The notes under the pieces were generated by a model. It did not search any database. It was not told where the DNA came from and saw only the letters and a list, made by a program, of their open reading frames with translations. The position numbers were made by a program, and so were the translations under genes. Of a DNA stretch of 32,501 nt, positions 15,887 to 30,510 are shown in pieces; position 1 is the stretch's first letter; each line of letters opens with the position of its first letter. This DNA is from Nitrospirota bacterium (GTDB lineage Bacteria > Nitrospirota > Thermodesulfovibrionia > Thermodesulfovibrionales > JdFR-85), in contig WGEZ01000006.1 in NCBI GenBank assembly GCA_015492515.1, positions 1 through 32,501 of the forward strand, written 5' to 3'.

Positions 15887-16080
15887 GACGTTCTTAACCC
15901 AATCACGCGGTGCGCTTCAGATGAGCCGCAACGGCCGGACACAGGCACGGCATACGAATGACGTAGGAATCATACCTCCTGGTCACGAAGCGGTCTGTTT
16001 GAAGGTCACGCAGCAGGGCATGACCCGTCTTCGATATGTTAGCATTTAGGGAGGTCTAAATTCAATCGGAGGTCAGCGTG

Positions 16081-18867
16081 ATGGGCCGGGACGAGGGGTT
16101 ACGGAGACTGATTTCCGAGGTGAGCGCCGGGATGCCCGACCCGGAGAGGACGGAGAGGAACATGCTCAGACTCTTCGAGGCCGCTCCGGAGGGAGAGGCC
16201 TTCCTCCCCTACCTGTGGGAGATAGGCAGGCTCTTCTCGGTCAGCCAGTTCCTTTCGAACTACTGTATCGCCCGGCCCGACGAGCTCCTCGCCGCCCTCG
16301 GCGAGCTCGGGAAACCCGTCGGGAGGGAGCTGCTCCTTGAGCGGGCGGGGTCGGAGCTCTCCCTCCCGGAAGAGGCGGATGCCGGAGAACGGATGAGGGT
16401 GTTGAGGGGGTTCAAGCGCCGGTACCTGCTGAGGATAACCTTGAGGGACCTCACGGGGCGGACCGGTGTAACCGCCTCGATGGAAGAGCTCTCCCACCTC
16501 GCCGAGGTGATCGTCACCACGGCGCTTCGATGGTCCCTTGAGCTCAACCGCCTGAGGTTCGGTGAACCGGAGGAGAGGGCGATCACCCTGATCAGCCTGG
16601 GGAAGCTGGGGTGCGCCGAGCTCAACTACAGCTCGGACATCGACCTGATCGCTGTCTACGACAGGGAGGGCGGCGAGACATCGGGTGTGCTGAAGTCCTC
16701 CGGCGTGAGGATGAACAGGATCAGCAACCACGAGTTCTACTGCAGGGTCGTCGAACTCTTCAGCAGGCTGCTCTCCCACCAGACCGGTGAGGGGATCGTC
16801 TACAGGGTCGACCTGAGGTTGAGACCCCAGGGGCAGAAGGGCGAGCTCGCCCTTCCCCTCAAGGCGTACCAGACCTACTACGAGTCATGGGGACGTACAT
16901 GGGAGAGGATGGTGCTCATAAGGGCCAGGCCTGTGGCGGGTGACGCCCGGCTCGGCCGGGCCTTCCTGGAGATGATCGTCCCCTTCGTCTGGAAGAGGAG
17001 CATCGACTACACCGAGATAGAGGAGATCAGGGGGATGAAGAAGAAGATAGACTCCACCCTTGCGCGGGACGACATCAAGCGCGGTTACGGCGGCATCAGG
17101 GAGATAGAGTTCTTCGTCCAGACCTTCCAGCTCATCTACGGCGGAGAGAACCCGGAGCTGAGGAGCCGGAGGCTCTCGGAAGCGATGGAGGTGCTGAAGG
17201 GGATGGGCCTCGTCCCTGGTGAGGAGATCGAGGTGCTCCGGGCCAACTACCTCCATCTCAGGAGGATCGAGCACTACCTCCAGATGAAGGACGACCTGCA
17301 GACCCACCTCCTGCCCCGGTCCGGGAGGGAGATGGAGGTGCTCTCCAGGCTGATGGGTTTCGCCTCCGGGGAGGAGTTCCTCACAGACCTCCGTCTGAGG
17401 CGCATGCAGGTGAAGAAGATGTACAACTCCCTCCTCGGCACCGAGGAGGAGATCCACGCAGAGGCCCTCACACTGCTGGAGGGTGATCTGACCGATGAGG
17501 AGCTGAAGGGGTATCTCTCCTTCAGGGGGGCGAAGAGGCCGGAGAGATGCATAGTGCATCTGAAGAAGGTGAGGGAGCAGATAGGGAGCTTCAAGAGCCG
17601 GAAGGACCGTGCCGTCCTCAGAGGCGTGCTCCCGGTGCTGCTGGAGAGGGTGCTCGTATCGGAGAGCCCCGACAGGGCCCTCTCGGGGCTCGAGAGCCTC
17701 CTGGCCCTTATGGGAGAGAACGAGACCAGCCTCACGGCACTGACAACGCACAAGGGCCTGATGGATGCGATCGTGACGATCTTCTCCCTCAGCCCCTACC
17801 TCACCAGGCTCTTCCTGAGCAGCAGCAGGTACCTCGGCGTACTCGTCGAGGGTATGACCATCAGGAAGACGTTGAGGAGGATGGAGGAGGAGCTCCGGAG
17901 GATCATCGAGTTCGGCGGCCGCTTCCCCGACCCCCTCGGTGAGTACAAGAGCATCGAGGAGATCCGCCTGGGCATGTTCTTCCTCACCGGCGTCATAACG
18001 ACGGGGGACCTCCTCAGATACCTCTCACACCTTGCAGAGGCCGTTATCAGGACGGTCCTGGACAGGGCCGACGGCGGTGCGGGGTTGTCCGTCATCGCCA
18101 TGGGGAAGCTCGGGGGGAGGGAGATCACCTTCGGCTCGGACCTGGACGTGATCTTCCTCACCGAGGGGCACGAAGGCGTGAAGACCGCAGAGACGGTGAT
18201 AAAGACCCTCACCACATACACCGGCAGGGGGATGCTCTACGATGTCGACGTCAGGCTGAGGCCGGACGGTACGAAGGGCGTCCTCGTAAAGGACATCGAG
18301 GGCTACAGGAACTACTACCTCAGGAACGCCCATCCCTGGGAGCTCCAGGCGCTTCTGAGGGCGAGGCCCGTTGCGGGGGACGAGGGTCTTGTAAGGGGTT
18401 TCATGGCCATGGCCGCGGAGGTGATCAGCCTGAGGGGCGCGGAGGTGGACCCCGGGGAGGTCCGTGCCATGAGGCAGAAGATCCTGAGAGAGCTCTCACA
18501 GGAGCAGGAAGGGGTGGATATAAAGCTCGGCCCGGGCGGGATAGAGGAGATCGAGTTCCACGTCCAGCTGCTCCAGCTCCGGAACGCCCGAAGGCTGCGG
18601 GAGGTCCTCGTGCAGAACACCTCGGCGGCCCTCAAGAGGCTGGCGAAGGGAGGGCTGATCACACCCGCCGAGAGGGAGACCCTCGCGGGAGCCTACCAGT
18701 ACCTGAGAAGGCTCGAGACATTCCTCAGGCTGAACGAGGAACAGGTGGTCGTGGGGGATTCCGAGACGGCCGAGCTGGCGGCAACCTTCATGGGCCACGG
18801 GGGCAGGGAGGAGTTCCTGGACCATCTGCAGGGGCTGAGGGGCTCCGTCTTAGCAGTGGTCGGCTGA
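16081..18867 (+). CDS. glnE: Bifunctional glutamine synthetase adenylyltransferase/deadenylase
   Basis: Adenylylates a Tyr of glutamine synthetase to switch it off and removes the AMP to switch it on. About 928 residues, with two related nucleotidyltransferase domains: the N-terminal adenylyl-removing domain with LGKLGCAELNYSSDIDLI (about 175-195) and the C-terminal adenylylating domain with MGKLGGREITFGSDLDVIF (about 673-695), joined by helical regulatory regions. Both G-S-D-x-D cores are intact, so both activities should be present. In proteobacteria PII proteins and glutamine control it; only nifI-type PII genes are visible here. GGAGG lies eight bases before the ATG at 16081; GTG at 16078 is the alternative. 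It is followed by the NrpR-like gene after 51 bases. Confidence 0.95.
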   Translation: MGRDEGLRRLISEVSAGMPDPERTERNMLRLFEAAPEGEAFLPYLWEIGRLFSVSQFLSNYCIARPDELLAALGELGKPVGRELLLERAGSELSLPEEADAGERMRVLRGFKRRYLLRITLRDLTGRTGVTASMEELSHLAEVIVTTALRWSLELNRLRFGEPEERAITLISLGKLGCAELNYSSDIDLIAVYDREGGETSGVLKSSGVRMNRISNHEFYCRVVELFSRLLSHQTGEGIVYRVDLRLRPQGQKGELALPLKAYQTYYESWGRTWERMVLIRARPVAGDARLGRAFLEMIVPFVWKRSIDYTEIEEIRGMKKKIDSTLARDDIKRGYGGIREIEFFVQTFQLIYGGENPELRSRRLSEAMEVLKGMGLVPGEEIEVLRANYLHLRRIEHYLQMKDDLQTHLLPRSGREMEVLSRLMGFASGEEFLTDLRLRRMQVKKMYNSLLGTEEEIHAEALTLLEGDLTDEELKGYLSFRGAKRPERCIVHLKKVREQIGSFKSRKDRAVLRGVLPVLLERVLVSESPDRALSGLESLLALMGENETSLTALTTHKGLMDAIVTIFSLSPYLTRLFLSSSRYLGVLVEGMTIRKTLRRMEEELRRIIEFGGRFPDPLGEYKSIEEIRLGMFFLTGVITTGDLLRYLSHLAEAVIRTVLDRADGGAGLSVIAMGKLGGREITFGSDLDVIFLTEGHEGVKTAETVIKTLTTYTGRGMLYDVDVRLRPDGTKGVLVKDIEGYRNYYLRNAHPWELQALLRARPVAGDEGLVRGFMAMAAEVISLRGAEVDPGEVRAMRQKILRELSQEQEGVDIKLGPGGIEEIEFHVQLLQLRNARRLREVLVQNTSAALKRLAKGGLITPAERETLAGAYQYLRRLETFLRLNEEQVVVGDSETAELAATFMGHGGREEFLDHLQGLRGSVLAVVG

Positions 18868-18874
18868 TTTCGGT

Positions 18875-18893
18875 TATAATATCAGGCCTGATA
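18875..18893 (+). promoter_or_regulatory. TATAAT box overlapping a 14-bp palindrome before the NrpR-like gene
   Basis: A perfect TATAAT at 18875-18880 runs into TATCAGGCCTGATA (18880-18893), a perfect 14-bp palindrome located where transcription would start. The -35 is weak (TTAGCA at 18850-18855, 19-base spacer). The arrangement suits an operator for autoregulation or another repressor. Confidence 0.45.
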
Positions 18894-18918
18894 GATCCAG
18901 ATCGCCACCGGAGGCCCT

Positions 18919-19935
18919 TTGAACAAGACCCTGATATCCATACTGAGGGTGCTCGGAAAGCACCAGGACGAGATCGTCGGCTCCCGGGAGATCGCCCGCC
19001 AGCTCAAGATGCACGGGGTGAACCTCTCGGAGAGGACGGTGAGGTATCATCTGAAGATGCTCGACGATCGCGGCCTGACCGACCCCTTCGGAAAGGAGGG
19101 ACGGAGGATAACGGAGAGGGGGAAGGAGGAGCTCTCCAGGGCCCTTGTTTCGGAGAAGGTCGGCTTCGTAATCAGCAGGATCGACACCCTCTCCTATCTC
19201 ACCAGCCTCGATCTCGACAGCCTCAGGGGTGAGGTGATCCTGAACGTCTCCTTCATCCCGAAGAGATGCCTCAGGGAGGCCCTCAGGATAATGAGACCCG
19301 TCTTCGCCTCACCCTATGTAATGAGCGACAGGGTGGTTGTAGTGAAGGAAGGCGGCAGGATAGGCGACGTCACCGTACCCCGGGGACGGGTCGCTGTAGG
19401 GACGGTCTGCAGCGTCACCATAAACGGGGTGTTCCTGAAGGCCGGGATCCCCGTGGTCTCCAGGTTCGGCGGCGTGCTCGAGATCGAAGAGGGTGGACCG
19501 ACGAGGTTCATCTCCCTGATAAGCTACGAGGGGTCGTCGCTCGACCCCCTGGAGGTCTTCATCCGCGGGAAGATGACCGACGTCACGGGGGCCGTCAGGA
19601 ACGGAACGGGCCGCATCCTGGCCAGCTTCAGGGAGATACCCGTTGTCTGCCACAGGAAGGCCAGGGAGCTGTCCGAGAGACTCAAGGCAAGGGGCATAGG
19701 GGGGATACTCGCCATCGGCGAGCCGAACGCTCCGCTGTACGAGATGCCAGTGAGCATGGACCGCTCCGGCATGGTGATAGTGGGCGGGCTCAACCCTGTA
19801 GCCGTCCTCGAGGAGGCGGGTATCCCCACGGAGAGCAAGGCCATGTCCACCCTCCATGAGTTCTCCTCCCTGACGGTATTTGAAAACCTCTGTTCCGACG
19901 GCAGACAAAGGAGGGAGAGATGCCGGAGATCCTGA
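18919..19935 (+). CDS. nrpR: NrpR-type transcriptional regulator (winged helix + one NRD/DUF128 domain)
   Basis: A 338-residue regulator. Residues 1-70 are a winged helix (SREIARQLKMHGVNLSERTVRYHLKMLDDRGLT); residues about 77-320 match the NrpR regulatory domain (GTVCSVTINGVFLKAGIPV, SRFGGVLEI, YEGSSLDPLEVFI, ILASFREIP, MVIVGGLNPVAVLEEAGI). In methanogens NrpR represses nif and glnA operons and releases DNA when 2-oxoglutarate is high. The single NRD matches the NrpRI form; M. maripaludis NrpR has two. The start is TTG with GGAGG four bases upstream. It lies between glnE and the PDO-TrxR gene (overlap 16 bases) and about 3.6 kb before nifA, so a nitrogen-repressor role is well supported by both sequence and context. 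Confidence 0.88.
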   Translation: MNKTLISILRVLGKHQDEIVGSREIARQLKMHGVNLSERTVRYHLKMLDDRGLTDPFGKEGRRITERGKEELSRALVSEKVGFVISRIDTLSYLTSLDLDSLRGEVILNVSFIPKRCLREALRIMRPVFASPYVMSDRVVVVKEGGRIGDVTVPRGRVAVGTVCSVTINGVFLKAGIPVVSRFGGVLEIEEGGPTRFISLISYEGSSLDPLEVFIRGKMTDVTGAVRNGTGRILASFREIPVVCHRKARELSERLKARGIGGILAIGEPNAPLYEMPVSMDRSGMVIVGGLNPVAVLEEAGIPTESKAMSTLHEFSSLTVFENLCSDGRQRRERCRRS

Positions 19936-21521
19936 CAGAGGGGATAAGGAAGGTCCTGAAGAGGGAGTTCGCCGCACTGACGGCCGATGTGGAGCTCCTC
20001 GTCTTCACCAGGAAGGGGCTGAATGATAAGTTCAACGAAATAACCGTCGGCCTCTGCAGGGAGCTTGAGGCACTGAGCGGGAAGATTCACTTCAAGCACA
20101 GGGAGGCGGACGGCGGAGAGGCGGAGAGGTACGGCGTCACCACATCGCCCGTGGTCCTCCTGAATCCCGACCGGTACCGCATCCAGTTCATGGGTGCACC
20201 TGTGGGTGAAGAGATGCGTTCCCTGGTCCTCGCCATAAGGATGGTCTCCCAGGGCAGGGGGGTCCTCTCCGGGGCCTCCGCCGCGAAGCTTAAGGGGCTG
20301 AAGGAGCAGCGGGAGGTGATGGTCTTTGTGAGCCCCACCTGTCCGTACTGCCCCCAGCAGGCTGTCTATGCGGTCTCGGCCGCTGTCGAGGCACCGGAGG
20401 CGGTCTCGGTAAAGGTGGTCGAGATCTACGAGAACCGGGAACTCGCCGAGCGGTACTCCGTCGTCTCCGTGCCCCAGACCGTGGTGAACGGAGAGGTGAT
20501 CGGTGTGGGTCTGCAGGAGGAGGGCGTCTTTGTCGACTCCCTGCTGAAGGGCGTCCGCCCCCGGGAGGGGCCCGCCCCTCCGGAGGAGGTGGTGAAGAAG
20601 GACCTGGTCATCGTGGGAGCCGGGCCCGCAGGGCTGACGGCGGCCATCTATGCCGAGAGATCGGGGCTCAGCACCGTTGTCCTCGAGAGGGGCAACATAG
20701 GCGGTCAGGTGGCGCTCACCCCTGTGGTCGAGAACTATCCGGGCTACACCCGCATCGCGGGCAAGACCCTCGTGGACCTGATGGCCGAACAGGCGCTCCA
20801 GTACGCCGAGATCCACCAGGGTGAGGGTGTCTCGGATATAGAGAGAACCGGGGAGGGCCTCTTCCGCGTGGTGACCGACTCGGCGGTCTACCTGGCGAAG
20901 GCCGTCATCCTCGCCACGGGAGCCGAGCACAAGAGGCTCGGCGTCCCCGGTGAGAAGCGGTTCTTCGGCAGGGGGGTGAGCTACTGCGCGACCTGTGACG
21001 GATACTTCTTCAAGGACGGCAAGAAGGTCGTCCTCGTGGGCGGGGGAAACACCGCGGTCACAGAGGTGCTCTACCTCGACAGTATCGGTGTGGATGTGAC
21101 CCTCATCCACAGGAGGGACAGGCTGAGGGCGGAGGAGAGGCTCCAGCAGAGCCTCAGGGAGAGGAGGATACCGATCCTGTGGAATACGGTGGTGGAGGAG
21201 ATACTCGGTGATACGGTGGTGAACGCCGTGAAGATCAGGAACCTCAAGGACGACAGGACCTCCGTGATGCCTGTGGACGGTGTCTTCGTGGCCATCGGCT
21301 ACGAGCCGCTCAACGAGCTCGCCAGGAAGCTCGGCCTCGAGCTCACCGGGGAGGGCTACATAAAGGTGGACGAGCGGCAGAGGACGTCGATGAAGGGTGT
21401 CTACGCCGCAGGTGACATCACGGGCGGGATAAAGCAGATCGTCACCGCCGTGGGACAGGGCTCGATCGCCGCGATAACCGCCTTCGAGGACCTGATGAAC
21501 CCCTACTGGAAGAAGGACTGA
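19920..21521 (+). CDS. Fusion of protein disulfide oxidoreductase (PDO) and thioredoxin reductase
   Basis: A 533-residue flavoprotein. Residues 1-215 hold two thioredoxin folds as in thermophile PDO: the first lacks a CxxC (TRKGLND at that site), the second has C141-PY-C144 and cis-Pro in VVSVPQTVVNG. Residues 226-533 are a complete thioredoxin reductase: FAD GAGPAG (233-238), redox C356-AT-C359, NAD(P) GGGNTA (374-379), HRRDRLRAEE favouring NADPH, and YAAGDITGG. Electrons should pass from NADPH through FAD and CATC to CPYC, similar to AhpF layout, but no ahpC is visible. The ATG has AAAGGAGGG six bases upstream and lies inside the end of the NrpR-like gene, so they are co-expressed. Confidence 0.88.
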   Translation: MPEILTEGIRKVLKREFAALTADVELLVFTRKGLNDKFNEITVGLCRELEALSGKIHFKHREADGGEAERYGVTTSPVVLLNPDRYRIQFMGAPVGEEMRSLVLAIRMVSQGRGVLSGASAAKLKGLKEQREVMVFVSPTCPYCPQQAVYAVSAAVEAPEAVSVKVVEIYENRELAERYSVVSVPQTVVNGEVIGVGLQEEGVFVDSLLKGVRPREGPAPPEEVVKKDLVIVGAGPAGLTAAIYAERSGLSTVVLERGNIGGQVALTPVVENYPGYTRIAGKTLVDLMAEQALQYAEIHQGEGVSDIERTGEGLFRVVTDSAVYLAKAVILATGAEHKRLGVPGEKRFFGRGVSYCATCDGYFFKDGKKVVLVGGGNTAVTEVLYLDSIGVDVTLIHRRDRLRAEERLQQSLRERRIPILWNTVVEEILGDTVVNAVKIRNLKDDRTSVMPVDGVFVAIGYEPLNELARKLGLELTGEGYIKVDERQRTSMKGVYAAGDITGGIKQIVTAVGQGSIAAITAFEDLMNPYWKKD

Positions 21522-23286: not shown

Positions 23287-23316
23287 TTGAATTCCAAAGC
23301 CCCTTTGTATTAAAAT
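23287..23316 (+). promoter_or_regulatory. Candidate nifA promoter
   Basis: TTGAAT (23287-23292), 18-base spacer, TAAAAT (23311-23316). Transcription would start near 23323, exactly where the 18-bp palindrome begins, leaving a leader of about 190 bases to the nifA GTG. A second weaker promoter-like pair lies nearer the gene: TTGACG (23444-23449) and TATTAG (23465-23470) with a short 15-base spacer. Confidence 0.45.
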
Positions 23317-23322
23317 GTTCTA

Positions 23323-23340
23323 TCGGCAATCTATTGCCGA
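23323..23340. promoter_or_regulatory. 18-bp palindrome, candidate NrpR operator at nifA
   Basis: TCGGCAAT-CT-ATTGCCGA, two perfect 8-bp arms around a 2-bp centre. It contains GGCA-N6-TGCC, the same geometry as the archaeal NrpR operator GGAA-N6-TTCC known from Methanococcus maripaludis. It lies over the predicted transcription start of nifA, a position for repression. That an NrpR-like gene lies 3.6 kb away makes it the leading candidate binder; this is inference. Confidence 0.5.
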
Positions 23341-23374
23341 CCCCTCCTTTCCCCCTTCCCGGGCAGGGGAGGGG
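23341..23374 (+). terminator. GC-rich hairpin between glgP and nifA
   Basis: CCCCTCC (23341-23347) pairs with GGAGGGG (23368-23374), with an alternative pairing between the inner C-runs and G-run, followed by GTTTGAA. Only three T follow, so it may be a weak glgP terminator or a structure in the nifA leader that can adopt two folds. Confidence 0.4.
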
Positions 23375-23446
23375 GTTTGAACATGAGTCGCGGGCGATGA
23401 TCCCGGCCTGTGTATGGTATATGCACTGCAGGGAGCCTCAAGATTG

Positions 23447-23514: not shown

Positions 23515-25068
23515 GTGACGGACAGGGAGAAGGAACTGATAGTCAGGAAGAACAGGGAGCTGAGTGCGATCCTTGAGGTGAGCCGCGTCCTCACCGCCTC
23601 CTTCGACCTCGAGGAGAACCTCAGTGCGGCGATGAAGATCCTGGGAAGCCTCCTTGAGATGCAGAGGGGTTGCGTATTCCTCCTGGACCCCATCTCGGAG
23701 GAGCTCCGCATCGTCGCCGCCCACGGGCTCACGAAGGAGGAGATCAAGCGCGGCAAATACCGTATAGGGGAGGGGATCGTGGGCAGGGTGATCAAGACGG
23801 GCTCGCCCATGTTCATACCAAACATCGGTGAGGAACCGAAGTTCCTGAACAGGACCGGTTCAAGGCCGAACAAGTACGGTATATCCTTCCTCTGCATCCC
23901 CATCGAGCTCAAGGGTGAGATCCTCGGTGTGATCAGTGCGGACAGGATCTATGCGGAGGAGCACGGCGGGGTGGACGACGACCTCAGGGTGCTGACGATC
24001 GTGGCCTCCCTGATCGCCCAGTTCGTGAAGCTCTGGGAGAACTACAGGAAGTCAGAGCAGGAGAGGGAGTCCCTCCGGTCCCAGTTGAAGGAGAGATACA
24101 GCCTGCCGAACATAGTGGGTGAGTCCGAGAAGTTCCAGAGCATACTGAAGACGGTGATGAAGGTCGCCGGCACGGATACGACCGTCCTCCTCCTTGGTGA
24201 GAGCGGGACCGGTAAGGAGCTGATCGCCAGGACGCTTCATTACCAGAGCCGCCGTGCGAAGGGACCCTTCGTGACGGTGAACTGTGCGGCACTGCCCGAC
24301 AACCTCCTGGAGGTCGAGCTCTTCGGCGTCGAGAAGGGGGCGTTCACAGGGGCCACGGCGAGCAGGGCCGGCAGGTTCGAGATCGCCAACGGAGGGACGA
24401 TCTTCCTTGACGAGATAGGGGAGCTTCCGCTGGGGCTGCAGGCGAAGCTGCTGAGGGTGCTGCAGGAGCGCGTGTTTGAGCGCGTCGGCTCCTCCAGGTC
24501 GATAAAGGTCGACGTGAGGGTCATTGCAGCGACGAACAAGAATATACTCGAAGAGGTGAAGAGGGGGAACTTCAGGGAGGACCTCTACTGGAGGCTGAAC
24601 GTGGTGCCCATCGTCCTGCCCGCCCTCAGGGAGAGGAAGCGCGACATTCCGCTTCTGCTGAACTACTACCTGGAGAAGTTCAACAGGACCTACGGCAAGA
24701 GGGTGAGGTTCTCCGAGGAGGCCCTCTCGACCCTGAAGGAATACCCCTGGCCGGGGAACGTGAGGGAGCTCGCCAATACGGTGGAGAGGCTGGTGATAAT
24801 GGCCGAGAAGGACGTGGTCGACACGGAAGACCTGCCCTTCAACCTCACAAGCGCGGCACCGGGAGCGGGGACGGAGACGAGCCTCCACGCATACGAGAAG
24901 CACACCTTGAGCCACGAGGTGCAGAGCCTCGAACGGGAGAGGATCATCAGGGCCCTGAGGGATCACGACTACATTCAGCACAGGGCGGCAAAGGCCCTCG
25001 GGATAACACCGAGGCAGCTCGGCTACAGGATAAAGAAGTACAGGATCGAGCTCAACCAGATAAAGTAG
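23515..25068 (+). CDS. nifA: Nif-specific sigma-54 activator NifA
   Basis: Activates sigma-54 RNA polymerase at nif promoters. About 517 residues from the GTG at 23515, which has GGAGG eight bases upstream; an in-frame ATG at 23410 is less likely. Order: GAF domain (about 20-180, [23 protein letters not shown].. at its start), AAA+ domain with Walker A GESGTGKE (about 228), the sigma-54-contacting GAFTGA loop (about 276) and Walker [10 protein letters not shown] (about 295), then a Fis-type HTH ([21 protein letters not shown], about 488-509). The linker lacks the Cys-x4-Cys of oxygen-sensitive rhizobial NifA, and no nifL is visible. A general sigma-54 activator is possible, but the GAF layout and location beside nif genes favour NifA. 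The 3' end overlaps hesA by 17 bases. Confidence 0.92.
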
Positions 25069-25823: not shown

Positions 25824-26714
25824 TCAGAGGACCATCTCACAGTACTCCTCACCGATCATCGCGTTTATCATCTCCAGGTCCGTGTCCCTCTCCTCACCGA
25901 TCCCGCCGAAGGCGTCCGCCCTGCATTGACGGCAGTGGGTCATCTGAGGGATGAAGCGGCTGCATTCATTGCGCAGCCGGTGGAGCTCCTCACGGGTGGG
26001 TCTCGGCAGGTGTCCGAGCTCAGCCAGGGGTATGAGGGGGATTATATTCATGAGACCCGCCCCTCTGCCGCCGGCAAGTCGTGCTATGAGGGGGAGTTCG
26101 GTGTCGTTGACGCCGGGGATCAGCACGGTGTTGACCTTCACGACAAGCCCCGCGGCAGCGGCCTTTCCCAGTCCTTCCCACTGGTTGCGCAACAGACGCT
26201 CCGCTCCCTCTCTGCCGTGGCAGCGCCTCTCCTTGTACTCCACCCATGAGTATATCCTTTCGGCGGTCTCGGTCGTAACGGCGTTTATCGTGATCGTCAG
26301 GCTCCTCACCCCTGCCTCCAGGAGGTCTTCGAGCCTGTCGGGAAGGCAGAGGCCGTTCGTCGAGACGCAGAGGATCAGCCCGGGAAACTCCCTGTGGACC
26401 GACCTCAGGACGTCGAAGGTGGTTCCGTTTGCCAGGGGGTCACCCGGTCCGGCTATCCCCACGACGTTCATCCCGCCGTCTCTCTCGGCAAGCACCCTCA
26501 CCCTTTCCAGGGCCTCGCGGGTGGTCAGGACCCTGCTCGTCACACCGGGCCTTGATTCATTCGCACAGTCATATCTCCTGATGCAGTACCTGCACCGTAT
26601 GTTGCATGCAGGGGCTACGGGGAGATGAAGCCTGCCGAACCTCCTGTGAGCATCCTCCGAGAAACAGGGGTGCTTCTTCACGACGTCGGCGCCGGCCTTC
26701 AAGGTCTCCTTCAC
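25824..26714 (-). CDS. nifB: Nitrogenase FeMo-cofactor core synthase NifB, short form
   Basis: Radical-SAM enzyme that fuses two [4Fe-4S] clusters with carbide and sulfur to make NifB-co. About 296 residues: HPCFSEDAHRRFGRLHLPVAPACN start, the SAM-cluster motif C37-x3-C41-x2-C44, DCANESRPGVTS, GIAGPGDPLAN, STNGLCLP, and C-terminal MTHCRQCRADAFG, so ligands of the extra clusters (Cys17, His23 and the CxxC pair) appear present. The NifX-like C-terminal domain of proteobacterial NifB is absent, as in archaeal-type NifB; a separate nifX lies upstream. The GTG at 26714 overlaps the nifI2 stop by four bases (GTGA), with GGAGAGG upstream. Longer readings through nifI2 are out-of-frame shadows. Confidence 0.95.
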   Translation of the reverse strand: MKETLKAGADVVKKHPCFSEDAHRRFGRLHLPVAPACNIRCRYCIRRYDCANESRPGVTSRVLTTREALERVRVLAERDGGMNVVGIAGPGDPLANGTTFDVLRSVHREFPGLILCVSTNGLCLPDRLEDLLEAGVRSLTITINAVTTETAERIYSWVEYKERRCHGREGAERLLRNQWEGLGKAAAAGLVVKVNTVLIPGVNDTELPLIARLAGGRGAGLMNIIPLIPLAELGHLPRPTREELHRLRNECSRFIPQMTHCRQCRADAFGGIGEERDTDLEMINAMIGEEYCEMVL

Positions 26715-27127
26715 GCTATCGCCTCTCCATCCCGCTCTCCGGTCCGTATCCTCAGGGCACCGTCCACAGGAGATACGAAGACCTTGCCGTCTCCGTGCCT
26801 TCCTGTCCGGTTGACCCTGACGATCGCCTTCACGAGCATTGTGACAGCCTCGTCCGGCACGACGATGGTGAGCAGCTTCTTCGGTACAAAAAGCGCAGCC
26901 TTCGGCAGGGTGTGCTCGAGGGCGTATGTGGATGGCGTGGGTTTGAGTCTCGCCGCTGTGCAGAAGCTCTCGGGCATCTCTGAGTCCATCTCGGCGCACA
27001 TGGCGCCCTTCTGTTTCCCTCTTCCGTCGACGCTCTGGATCGTGAGCGAGGGGTAGCCGAGCTCATCAAGCACCCGCTTCGTCTCCGGGACCTTGTCCCT
27101 CCTGATGATCGCGGTGATCTCCTTCAT
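26711..27127 (-). CDS. nifI2: PII-family nitrogenase regulator NifI2
   Basis: The larger PII-like partner of NifI1, 138 residues. It begins MKEITAIIRRDKVPETKRVLDELGYPSLTI and has GRGKQKGAM, then an extended T-loop region (about 48-80, LKPTPSTYALEHTLPKAALFVPKK) longer than in GlnB, then RTGRHGDGKVFVSPVDGALRIRTGE. In methanogens and anaerobic bacteria the NifI1-NifI2 complex binds the MoFe protein and blocks nitrogenase when 2-oxoglutarate is low. Here it overlaps nifI1 by four bases (ATGA) and nifB by four. Such genes normally sit between nifH and nifD. Confidence 0.93.
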   Translation of the reverse strand: MKEITAIIRRDKVPETKRVLDELGYPSLTIQSVDGRGKQKGAMCAEMDSEMPESFCTAARLKPTPSTYALEHTLPKAALFVPKKLLTIVVPDEAVTMLVKAIVRVNRTGRHGDGKVFVSPVDGALRIRTGERDGEAIA

Positions 27128-27441
27128 AGGCCGGCCTCCCCGGTCCTGACGGTGTAGGCGCTCTCCACGGGGCTGACGAAGATCTTGCCGTCGCCGATGA
27201 AGCCGGTCCTCGCCTTCGCCTGAATTATACTCACCACCTTCTCCTCGTCCTCGTCATCGACGATGATCATCAGCAGGGTCTTGGGCAGTTCGTCGTAATG
27301 CACAGGCCCCACATGGAGGCCCTTCTGCTTACCCCTTCCGAAAACCGGCATCTTCGTAACGGACGGAAACCCTGCACCCTCCAGGGCCAGAACCACCTCC
27401 TGCTCCTTCTCCGGTCTTATGAACGCCCTGATCATCTTCAT
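27124..27441 (-). CDS. nifI1: PII-family nitrogenase regulator NifI1
   Basis: A 105-residue PII-like protein: MKMIRAFIRPEKEQEVVLALEGAGFPSVTK, FGRGKQKGLHVGPVHYDELPK (a T-loop without the uridylylated Tyr context of GlnB), LLMIIVDDEDEEKVVSII, and GFIGDGKIFVSPVESAYTVRTGE. This pattern is NifI1 rather than GlnB/GlnK. It forms the switch-off complex with NifI2 on nitrogenase. AAGGAGGAAAGACC precedes the ATG, a strong ribosome site at the start of the nifI1-nifI2-nifB coupled trio, 58 bases after nifX; no separate promoter is convincing in that gap. Confidence 0.93.
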   Translation of the reverse strand: MKMIRAFIRPEKEQEVVLALEGAGFPSVTKMPVFGRGKQKGLHVGPVHYDELPKTLLMIIVDDEDEEKVVSIIQAKARTGFIGDGKIFVSPVESAYTVRTGEAGL

Positions 27442-27499: not shown

Positions 27500-27889
27500 C
27501 TAACCGTCATTCATGGCCTTTCTGAGCCACGGCGGCGGCGACGTCCTTACGGTCCGGAGGAGCCTCTTCAGTGCCTCTTCCACGGGGGTCCCCTCCCTCA
27601 CCTTTACGGGCATCATCCCCCTCCTGGAGAGCCTTGCAGCCGACGGCCCTCCGATCTCCGTAAGATACACGATCCTGCAATCCGAGAGGCTGTCGACCTT
27701 GCGCTCCACCCTCTCCTCATGTAACCGTCCTTCCGACTCCTCTATGCCGGAGTCCCTGCCCTCGGCGAACCTCCTGATCTCGACGAACTGATAACCCTCC
27801 TCCGTCAACTCGTATATGGCGAACGCGCCTGCCCTGCCGAAGTGCTCATCCACGTTGAGGCCGTCCGTCGTGGCGAAGGCGATCTTCAT
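27500..27889 (-). CDS. nifX: NifX-like dinitrogenase FeMo-cofactor carrier protein
   Basis: A 129-residue protein of the NifX/NafY/NifB-C-terminal fold, which carries NifB-co or FeMo-co precursors between NifB, NifEN and apo-nitrogenase. It starts MKIAFATTDGLNVDEHFGRAGAFAIYEL, containing the conserved DEHFGRA with the His used for cofactor binding, and has CRIVYLTEIGGPSAARLSRRGMMPVKV, then VEEALKRLL. The Cys is the only one in the protein. Its ATG shares one base with the nifEN stop (TGATG), so the two are translationally coupled. NafY-type proteins are longer. Confidence 0.88.
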   Translation of the reverse strand: MKIAFATTDGLNVDEHFGRAGAFAIYELTEEGYQFVEIRRFAEGRDSGIEESEGRLHEERVERKVDSLSDCRIVYLTEIGGPSAARLSRRGMMPVKVREGTPVEEALKRLLRTVRTSPPPWLRKAMNDG

Positions 27890-30510
27890 CAGCGCACCTC
27901 CATTAAAAGATCAGCCACTTCATTGATGGTCGTCAGGGTTCCCCTGTAACCTACGGTTATCCTCGCGTTGTACCCCAGGGTCTTGTACACGGGAAATCCC
28001 ATCTGATACAGGGGAATTCCGAGCCTCCTCGCCGCAAGCTCTGCATGGGAGTTTGAAATCATGAGATCAAACTCGCCCTCCGGAGAGAAAAGGTCACCGA
28101 TCTTTACCTCTTTTGCATCAATCCCTCGCACCGATGGTGAATGATGTGGAATCACTGCAAGCTCAACCACTGCACCCATCTCCCCGATCACCCTCGAGAC
28201 CTGGACCGAAAGGTCAGGCTCAAGAGCTGTGCAGAACCTCTTTCCTCCGTAGCAGAAACGGGCGTCTCTCATCCCATCGATCAGAACCCTTCTCTGTCTT
28301 TCATATCTGAGAGGCAGCGCTCTGCCACTCAACGCCGAGAGTATGTCCATCAATGCGTCTGTCCCGCTTAGACCGGAGATGCTTTCAAGCAGCGTGTACT
28401 CGATTCCGAACTTCTCCCTCAACATTTTAGCGGGCTGCTCCATACTCATCCCGACGGCGATCGTGAACTCTGAACTCCCCATCTGATCTACCTCTGACAG
28501 TCTTATGCCTCCAGATGCAAGGGGGGAGAAATCCCGCCTGCTTCCGTCGAGAGCGGACAGATCGGGTAACATAAGGGGTCTCAGCCCGAAGGATTCGATC
28601 ATCTCCCTTAGTTCTGTAAAGTCAGCAGGCGTCAGATGTGGACCTGCAAGGACATTCACCCGTCCCGCGGCCTCTCTCCTGTGCCCCGTCCGCTCAGCCT
28701 CTATACCCTCAAGTACGGCCTCCACCGCCTTTGCATATCCTGCCTCCAGGCCACCTTCATACTCCGGTGCAGGGACATGAACGATCCTGCATCTGCCGCT
28801 CGACGTCTGCAATCTCTTCATCGCTCCTGTCACATCATCACCCCTGACCTCTGAAAGCCCGGAGGTAAGGACGGCGATCAGATCCGGTCCCTGTTTCTCC
28901 ACGATCCCTTCAATGACGTTTACGAGTCTTTCCTCGCTTCCCATCACCACATCCTCTGTAAAGAGTTTTGTACTCGCAAGGGCTATGGGCTCCCTGAAGT
29001 GTTTTGTAATGAGCGCCTTTGCAAGGAAGCTGCAGCCCTGTGCGCCGTGAATCACCGGCAACGCCCTGTCTATACCCTGAAACGCGATGGCGGCCCCGAT
29101 GGACCGGGAGTGTTTCAGGGGATTGATAACCACATCCCTGCTTCGAAGGATCTCTGATCTGTCGGGAAGACCTCCTGACTTCCGGCTCCTCACCCCTCCC
29201 CCGGCCGGCTCTTGACCGAAGAAGCGGATACCGTTGCTGATGTCTTCCGCAAGATTAACGAGCCCTTCATATCCGGCATACGCTCTGTGCCGTTCCTGAT
29301 TCACGTCCACGAACGGGAAGCCCTCTTTCACGGCAAGATAGAGGTTTCTGCCGCCGGCCACAAGTATGTCTGCCTCCTTCTCCTTCATGAGCGCCCTCAG
29401 CCTTTCGGGACCCACATCTTCATAGAGGGGTGCGTCCTCACCAAGCAGCTGCCTCATCTTTTCTTCATCCTCATAGGTGCTCTTTTTCGTCCCCGCTGCA
29501 ACGACGTCGACACCCAGGTCGAGGAGGGCCGAGATGAAGGACCAGCTCTTCACACCGCCTGTATAGAGGACCGCCTTCCTGCCTCTTAAATGGGAAAACT
29601 CCCTCAGTCGTTCCTCAAGCCGCCTTTCCTCTCTCTCGATTATCTCCTCAATCCTGCCGCGCAGCCTTCTGAATCCCGGGTTTCGAATTTCGAGTCTTGA
29701 ACATATCGCCCTCAGCGCCCCGGTCATCTCGGTCTTTCCGAAAAAAGAGACCTCAACATAGGGAATGCCGTATCTCTCCTCCATCCTCCTCGCGACGTTC
29801 AGAAGGGCACGGCTGCAGACCACCACATTCAGCCTCGCCCTGTGTGCATAGGTTATCTCTTCAAAGCATGCATCTCCGGTGATCCTGGAGAGTATCCTGA
29901 CGCCGGCCTCCTCGAGCAAGGGCTCGACGTTCCAGAGGTCCCCGGCGATGTTGTACTCGCCGATGAGGTTTATGTCGTAATCGGTCCTCGACGGGGGTTC
30001 TCCGGTCCCGATCACGTGATCAACGAGCACCTCTCCCGCCATCCTGTTGCCGAGGTTTTTGGGGCCGACAAAACCAGGAGCGTTCACAGGTATCACCCTG
30101 ATGCCGAGGGTGGTCTCCGCCTTCCTGCATACCGCCTCAATGTCCTCTCCGATGAGCCCGCTTACGCATGTTGCGTAGACGAAGACGGCGGCGGGTCTTA
30201 CAGCCTCGTACGTCCTGATGATGGCTCTGTAGAGTTTGTCCCCGGAGCCATAGACGATATCCAGCCCCGTTATGTCTGTTGTAAAGCCCATCCTGTACAG
30301 GTTGCCTTTTGTGGAGAGGGTGCCCCTGCCTTCCCAGGAGTTGCCGCAGCATGCTATGGGGCCGTGAACGATGTGAGCGGCGTCGGCAATGGGCTGAAGC
30401 ACGATCATCGCACCGTCGAAGGCGCAGGATTCACCTCCGCGGCTGCGGCATACCCTGTCGACCGATTTGCTGCATCCGTCATCAAGTATTTTATCCGCCG
30501 CCTTCAACAT
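27889..30510 (-). CDS. nifEN: Fused FeMo-cofactor scaffold NifE-NifN
   Basis: One 873-residue reading frame carries both scaffold subunits that mature FeMo-co from NifB-co. Residues 1-433 are NifE: Cys29 (GGESCAFDGA), Cys54 (GPIACCGNSW) and Cys115 (YATCVSGLIGED) match the [4Fe-4S] ligands, and VDVNQERHRAYAGYEGLVNLA closes the domain. A 20-residue Gly/Arg/Ser linker (about 434-454) follows. Residues 458-873 are NifN: NPLKHSRSIGAAIAFQG, GAQGCSF with the fourth ligand (Cys493), and LFTEDVVMGSE. No stop or frameshift is seen between them. NifE and NifN are usually separate genes. Starts 17 bases after nifK, with GGAGAGG upstream. Confidence 0.94.
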   Translation of the reverse strand: MLKAADKILDDGCSKSVDRVCRSRGGESCAFDGAMIVLQPIADAAHIVHGPIACCGNSWEGRGTLSTKGNLYRMGFTTDITGLDIVYGSGDKLYRAIIRTYEAVRPAAVFVYATCVSGLIGEDIEAVCRKAETTLGIRVIPVNAPGFVGPKNLGNRMAGEVLVDHVIGTGEPPSRTDYDINLIGEYNIAGDLWNVEPLLEEAGVRILSRITGDACFEEITYAHRARLNVVVCSRALLNVARRMEERYGIPYVEVSFFGKTEMTGALRAICSRLEIRNPGFRRLRGRIEEIIEREERRLEERLREFSHLRGRKAVLYTGGVKSWSFISALLDLGVDVVAAGTKKSTYEDEEKMRQLLGEDAPLYEDVGPERLRALMKEKEADILVAGGRNLYLAVKEGFPFVDVNQERHRAYAGYEGLVNLAEDISNGIRFFGQEPAGGGVRSRKSGGLPDRSEILRSRDVVINPLKHSRSIGAAIAFQGIDRALPVIHGAQGCSFLAKALITKHFREPIALASTKLFTEDVVMGSEERLVNVIEGIVEKQGPDLIAVLTSGLSEVRGDDVTGAMKRLQTSSGRCRIVHVPAPEYEGGLEAGYAKAVEAVLEGIEAERTGHRREAAGRVNVLAGPHLTPADFTELREMIESFGLRPLMLPDLSALDGSRRDFSPLASGGIRLSEVDQMGSSEFTIAVGMSMEQPAKMLREKFGIEYTLLESISGLSGTDALMDILSALSGRALPLRYERQRRVLIDGMRDARFCYGGKRFCTALEPDLSVQVSRVIGEMGAVVELAVIPHHSPSVRGIDAKEVKIGDLFSPEGEFDLMISNSHAELAARRLGIPLYQMGFPVYKTLGYNARITVGYRGTLTTINEVADLLMEVR

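Follow-up and report, generated by a model that had tools for sequence, protein, structure and literature searches.

The stretch of DNA analysed here (the window) is one entire contig, C6, of 32501 bases from a Nitrospirota genome of 2.19 Mb. Its features are listed in Table 1. As had been claimed in an earlier note on this DNA, nrpR was found between glnE and a redox gene. Beyond the redox gene the order is glucan phosphorylase, nifA, a ThiF-family gene, nifB, two PII genes, nifX, fused nifEN and nifK; the nifE-nifN fusion is a single frame of 873 amino acids (27889-30510). For nifA there are two start options, GTG 23410 and GTG 23515, and the latter, which follows a GGAGG and is where the homologues begin, is most likely the start.

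Table 1. Coordinates of nrpR, its neighbours and the nifA promoter elements in the window
Feature	Position	Strand	Basis or remark
nrpR	18919..19935	+	338 aa; TTG start with GGAGG ahead; Pfam and 3nek match
Winged-helix DNA-binding domain (HTH_12, aa 6-72)	18934..19134	+	Pfam
NRD domain (NRD1_2, aa 81-319), 3nek homologue	19159..19875	+	Pfam, PDB match, predicted model
glnE, glutamine synthetase adenylyltransferase	16078..18867	+	51 bp upstream of nrpR; profile matches
Thioredoxin-reductase/AhpF-like gene	19920..21521	+	16-nt overlap with nrpR 3' end
nifA promoter, -35-like TTGAAT	23287..23292	+	promoter reading
nifA promoter, -10-like TAAAAT	23311..23316	+	7 bp ahead of operator
Candidate NrpR operator CGGCAATCTATTGCCG in nifA promoter	23324..23339	.	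genome motif search and matrix score
nifA	23515..25068	+	TIGR01817 above cut-off; frame open from 23410
PII gene, probable NifI partner	26711..27127	-	best PDB match 9p1x chain G
PII gene, probable NifI	27124..27441	-	best PDB match 9p1x chain H, E 3.9e-38

The two PII genes are adjacent and lie inside the nif cluster, which is the pairing of NifI1/NifI2 genes, and by position and pairing they are likely to be nifI1/nifI2. Of the earlier claim that nifA and nifI1/nifI2 are close by, the nifA part thus stood (TIGR01817) and the PII pair is present, its identity as NifI being likely. According to the excerpt available of PMC9765008, NifI1/NifI2 switch off nitrogenase in archaea. The archaeal genes, as described there, are likewise two neighbouring PII genes within the nif cluster; as judged from the genes, the pair in the window differs in following nifX and not nifH.

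Pfam profile searches with the NrpR protein yielded HTH_12 with 68.9 bits (cut-off 21.4, E 3.6e-19) and the NRD domain (PF01995), as NRD1_2, with 287 bits (cut-off 25, E 1.1e-85), both matches being far beyond chance. The sole PDB sequence match was 3nek, the NRD of MJ0159 (E 2.8e-39). In the AlphaFold model (mean pLDDT 87.7) the NRD could be superposed on 3nek with a Z of 30.1 and 1.9 A over 220 residues, and residues 1-83 showed likeness to MarR-type and CggR winged helices. These matches bear out the proposed layout of a winged helix plus one NRD, as in NrpRI. A genome-wide profile search found nrpR to be the single NRD gene and no separate NRD-only NrpRII gene in the genome; such a partner had been suggested as something to look for. 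With one NRD gene per genome, the layout is NrpRI-like without an NrpRII partner. Compared with the Methanosarcina NrpRI/NrpRII system, the window protein (helix-turn-helix plus one NRD) resembles NrpRI, and what its genome lacks is the NRD-only protein; NrpRII reportedly contacts archaeal basal factors, to go by the title of a paper, and these factors are missing in bacteria. NrpR of Methanococcus maripaludis has two NRD domains, whereas the bacterial protein has one, and most of the archaea searched have two NRD genes per genome.

Identity of the domain and its conservation point to 2-oxoglutarate as the probable ligand of the window NrpR. That its NRD is only 40% identical to the archaeal NRD would also be compatible with a protein that recognises its DNA site yet responds to a different signal, or works with PII, and has no 2-oxoglutarate switch. 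However, the core residues of the NRD showed no variation in an alignment of the bacterial set with one archaeal NrpR, and the model fits 3nek closely (see above), which makes this alternative rather unlikely.

At least 21 of 32 bacterial loci indexed (L016 and L034 were left out of the indexing) have nrpR beside genes for glutamine synthetase, GltB-like GOGAT, PII or glutamate dehydrogenase, or beside glnE. In two relatives, G299 and G291, an intact short-type glutamine synthetase gene (GSI-alpha) lies between glnE and nrpR; it is absent in the window, and in a third relative, G188, it also follows glnE but has an internal deletion. Loss of the GSI-alpha glnA thus appears to be under way in the family (window 16078-19935 compared with L272, L273 and L274), in G188 alongside nrpR. 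The genome of the window keeps one longer glutamine synthetase gene, GSI-beta (glnA), on contig C92. Its product contains KDLYELPPEE, which resembles the GlnE target of the E. coli enzyme. The 51 bp that separate glnE from nrpR contain a perfect palindrome, TATCAGGCCTGATA (18880-18893), directly past a TATAAT (18875-18880); it differs from the operator described below and is absent from the relatives compared.

The near relatives of the window NrpR come from Nitrospirota and Thermodesulfovibrionia; NRD genes also occur in Chloroflexota and deltaproteobacterial-type loci. The NrpR family is best known from archaea, and among 14 control genomes an NRD match was obtained in two methanogens only, as might be expected if nrpR were a recent, isolated transfer from archaea with no integrated role. 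The phylogeny of the NRD, which the earlier note had proposed as a check, already contradicts this. In an unrooted tree of 99 sequences, thinned from 134 distinct ones, the 55 bacterial rows were set apart from the rest by a branch (support 100/98) that was present in 100% of the bootstrap trees. Since all archaeal rows belong to a single phylum and the tree has no root, the direction of transfer is only inferred. NRD genes were present in 64 of 295 sampled Nitrospirota genomes (those of G080, G096 and G213 are partial or broken, and that of G058 is a weak match below the cut-off), and both the gene order at nrpR and the operator are conserved among relatives. A recent transfer is thus extremely improbable. 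The description of the gene as an archaeal-type NrpR in a bacterium holds as to the identity of the protein, but instead of an isolated import it belongs to a widespread bacterial clade.

According to the excerpt available of PMC2723118, the sequence bound by NrpR of M. maripaludis is GGAAN6TTCC, located ahead of nif, glnK-amtB, glnA and other genes. Two copies of this sequence occur in the window, at 631 in a SurA-like gene and at 23832 in nifA; neither is at a promoter, and both were judged to be chance occurrences. The candidate NrpR operator proposed here is the palindrome CGGYAA-N4-TTRCCG, i.e. GGYA-N6-TRCC. It was first spotted by eye in eight promoters (PII-amtB, glnA and nrpR promoters of relatives, with the glnA promoter of the window's own genome included). 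Because the motif was read from these eight, they, own glnA among them, are not independent, whereas the nifA site is, since it was found by a genome search after the motif had been fixed. Exact copies in the genome number three, in the nifA promoter (Table 1), in the glnA promoter (C92:22780) and at C141:729. The last was rejected as a target; it lies inside a coding frame, by its look a transaldolase. By number alone the genome is not enriched, with three exact copies as against two of the reversed control. In a matrix scan of the window the site at 23324 scored 24.1 bits and the runner-up position 8.8 bits, and no operator was found upstream of glnE or nrpR. Accordingly, of the three upstream regions that had been put forward for gel shift experiments (nifA, nrpR and glnE), that of nifA has the operator when read by the matrix and the other two do not.

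To see whether the operator goes with nrpR, 41 genomes (own and relatives) were compared, of which 24 have nrpR and 17 do not; five contigs occur twice in the collection (L002, L004, L006, L011 and L014 are the same as in G299, G291, G111, G032 and G005), and the genome counts use the G genomes only. Of the 24 genomes with nrpR, 22 contained the exact operator (G040 and G192 do not); of the 17 that lack nrpR, two contained it (G062 and G083). Fisher's test for the exact site and nrpR presence gave a p of 2.5e-7, uncorrected for kinship; p values of this kind overstate the association because the genomes are related. Altogether there were 37 exact sites as against 6 of the reversed pattern in genomes with nrpR, and 2 as against 5 in genomes without it. 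All 39 exact sites were inspected. In nrpR-containing genomes 26 of 37 were upstream of nitrogen genes and 11 elsewhere; both sites of the genomes without nrpR were elsewhere (0/2). The 26 nitrogen sites belong to glnA (14), nifA (5), PII-amtB (2), the MCRLAAITS gene of GOGAT operons (3) and a class-I amidotransferase gene (2). They lie within about 110 bp of the gene start, the distance being 175 bp for own nifA if its start is GTG 23515. Of the six sites in G295, four resemble a dispersed repeat and were left out of the targets. When one glnA promoter per genome was searched for a relaxed site (the upstream stretch of L157 being set by hand), it was detected in 15 of 18 genomes with nrpR and in 0 of 13 without; the three nrpR-containing genomes whose glnA promoter lacks it are G136, G126 and G004.

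The closeness of glnE, nrpR and the redox gene could mean that NrpR controls only its own neighbourhood (glnE and the overlapping redox gene) and that the site at nifA is there by chance. This is very unlikely: glnE and nrpR are without operator, the sole good site of the window is at nifA, and the exact site recurs at nifA in four further genomes (G032, G047, G052 and G093, besides the own genome, G000). As to the identity of these genes, L170 was over the NCBIfam cut-off, whereas L177, L178 and L186 had nifA as best match with 483-492 bits (cut-off 528.85); each of the four frames continues to the end of the fetched piece. In three more genomes nifA is part of an amtB operon behind the site, either exact (PII-amtB-nifA in G269) or one base off (G154, and amtB-nifA in G297).

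A natural deletion is provided by G188 (99% complete), which has no nrpR. Its locus consists of DUF1015, glnE and the internally deleted GSI-alpha gene, and continues with the flank that is found after nrpR in G299, the nrpR interval being gone. The glnA promoter of G188 contains CGGCAAACCCAATACCG, which is one base longer than the site in the relatives G291 and G299, so that the half-sites are out of register. Such decay of the site after loss of nrpR is what is expected if NrpR read it.

At both targets of the genome the operator comes soon after the -10 box: at nifA TTGAAT-N18-TAAAAT is followed by the operator 7 bp on, and at glnA TTGACA-N18-TACTTT is followed by it 3 bp on. For 35 hand-picked rows, i.e. 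sites upstream of nitrogen genes (L185 being the L011 site in the other direction), the best upstream -35/-10 pair averaged 9.96 of 12.5, compared with 7.72 in 500 shuffles (sd 0.14, maximum 8.17), and the distance from the -10 box to the operator was 1-14 bp. A protein bound just past a sigma-70-type -10 box would cover the start site, which would be repressor-like. A consensus scan of the window and of the genome's own nitrogen loci detected no strong sigma-54 site at nifA or glnA. Past the nifA operator, in the long leader that runs to the likely start of the gene, there is a GC-rich inverted repeat, CCCCCTTCCCGGGCAGGGGAGGGGG (23345-23380), possibly an attenuator or terminator.

The glnB-amtB operon of the genome is without operator. 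Its promoter (L076:6140-6260, contig C92) carries TGGCACAATTATTGTT, which resembles a sigma-54 element, together with two or three copies of the palindrome CCTACAWTTTTGTAGG, and thus part of the nitrogen control appears to be outside NrpR. Sites of the TACAATTTTGTA type near amtB and PII genes were also seen in genomes without nrpR. These observations cover L118, L129, L135 and L137 besides L076, and the TACAATTTTGTA/CCTACAWTTTTGTAGG palindromes point to a putative second nitrogen regulator. An automatic dyad search in 70 upstream regions gave weak matches only, to ACAATATATTGT and CTTAAT-N14-ATTAAG. The former is common to loci with nrpR and a ribonucleotide reductase gene in divergent orientation; as a likely NrdR box it was set aside.

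In 14 bacterial loci from outside the Nitrospirota (about 201 kb) 13 positions reached 13 bits in the matrix scan, and 9 of these lay within the 100 bp ahead of nrpR (L021-L024, L027-L029, L031 and L033; 9 of the 14 loci). Three of the nine were already in the matrix and L024 repeats one, leaving five independent sites, which suggest autoregulation of nrpR in these loci. Among 71 Nitrospirota nrpR upstream sequences (duplicates included) only two had a GGNA-N6-TNCC palindrome, and autoregulation is therefore not claimed there. With 2 of 64 archaeal nrpR promoters carrying this palindrome, the comparison with archaea draws on the literature and on one of the 64, L249, in which GGCAACCTATTGCC lies shortly past a TATA-like box; the same 14 bases occur in the bacterial L006 and L119.

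These results bear on the question of whether the palindrome is read by another nitrogen regulator that is co-inherited with nrpR, the targets of NrpR being elsewhere. The link between NrpR and the site is one of co-occurrence, and the TACAATTTTGTA-type palindromes near amtB and PII promoters speak for the existence of a second regulator. Nevertheless, the site follows nrpR even within one genus, as it decayed in G188 where nrpR was lost, in Chloroflexota and deltaproteobacterial loci nrpR has it in its own upstream region, and its spacing equals that of the archaeal NrpR operator. We consider the co-inherited regulator unlikely, and NrpR remains the preferred reader of the site.

The circuit that we propose has NrpR as a 2-oxoglutarate-responsive repressor, which would block nifA and glnA through the operator when nitrogen is plentiful; taken as a whole, we hold it to be quite probable. 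With ample nitrogen and low 2-oxoglutarate, NrpR would bind CGGYAA-N4-TTRCCG immediately past the -10 box, blocking initiation at the sigma-70-type promoters of nifA in the window and of glnA, the product of which would be adenylylatable, on C92. When nitrogen is short, 2-oxoglutarate would bind to the NRD domain and NrpR would leave the DNA, as the archaeal protein does on binding it (according to the excerpt available of PMC11957540). NifA and glutamine synthetase would then be made, and NifA would switch on nif. Nitrogenase and glutamine synthetase would also be gated at the protein level, the former by the PII pair (probably NifI1/NifI2) and the latter by GlnE. The operators of nifA and glnA, which track nrpR, support the suggestion of the earlier note that NrpR is wired into a bacterial nitrogen circuit with NifA, and suggest that one sensor of nitrogen status may control both nifA and the glutamine synthetase gene.

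The NtrB/NtrC system sets glnA and nifA transcription by nitrogen status, NtrC being a phosphorylated activator of sigma-54 promoters. Nitrogen status would set the same two genes in both systems, but NrpR is proposed to be a one-component repressor of sigma-70-type promoters. As far as the excerpt of PMC2723118 goes, the M. maripaludis regulator shares with the bacterial one the NRD, the winged helix and an operator made up of two half-sites of 4 bases with a gap of 6 bases (here by comparison), as well as the types of target, i.e. glutamine synthetase, glnK-amtB type operons and nitrogen fixation; the half-site is GGYA in the bacterium and GGAA in M. maripaludis. M. maripaludis NrpR acts directly on the nif operon, whereas that of the window would act at sigma-70-type promoters and reach nif via NifA; the window ends before the nif operon promoter, which is off the contig.

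That NrpR occurs in "certain Bacteria" was already known, as the same excerpt states (PMC2723118). In the open-licence literature no paper was found on targets, an operator or a NifA link of bacterial NrpR, and the sites described here thus offer a testable regulon, at the level of single bases, for a repressor family barely mentioned in bacteria by the literature examined. They also provide a proposal for how diazotrophic Nitrospirota, which are known mostly as metagenome bins, may tie nifA and glnA to nitrogen status. With an unchanged operator geometry, the same family would act on archaeal promoters in the one domain and, in bacteria, on promoters of the sigma-70 type. More tentatively, and with somewhat less than even confidence, NrpR may be the main transcriptional nitrogen regulator in a broad set of bacteria (Thermodesulfovibrionia, Dehalococcoidia and syntrophic deltaproteobacterial lineages). 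In a single ancient transfer between the two domains, repressor and operator code (GGYA-N6-TRCC) would have travelled together, GSI-alpha and GOGAT genes often going along, and NrpR would later have been wired onto sigma-70 promoters and above NifA. If true, the same sensor acts on the basal machinery of both domains.

Some further observations concern the GOGAT genes. A gene whose product starts with MCRLAAITS (L010:4289-5398; homologues in L014, L015, L016, L069, L172, L175 and L188) accompanies GOGAT-type genes behind an exact operator. No match to it was found in Pfam, NCBIfam or the PDB; from its start and its place beside GltB-like genes we presume that it is class-II amidotransferase-like. 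Upstream of the GltB-like genes in L010, L014 and L016 a CTTAAT-N13/14-ATTAAG inverted repeat lies past a T-run, and is possibly recognised by a further GOGAT regulator. A KaiC-like ATPase that also carries a helix-turn-helix and a cupin domain as a fusion (family f4) is encoded beside GOGAT and nrpR genes at L010:6918-8204 and in six other nrpR loci.
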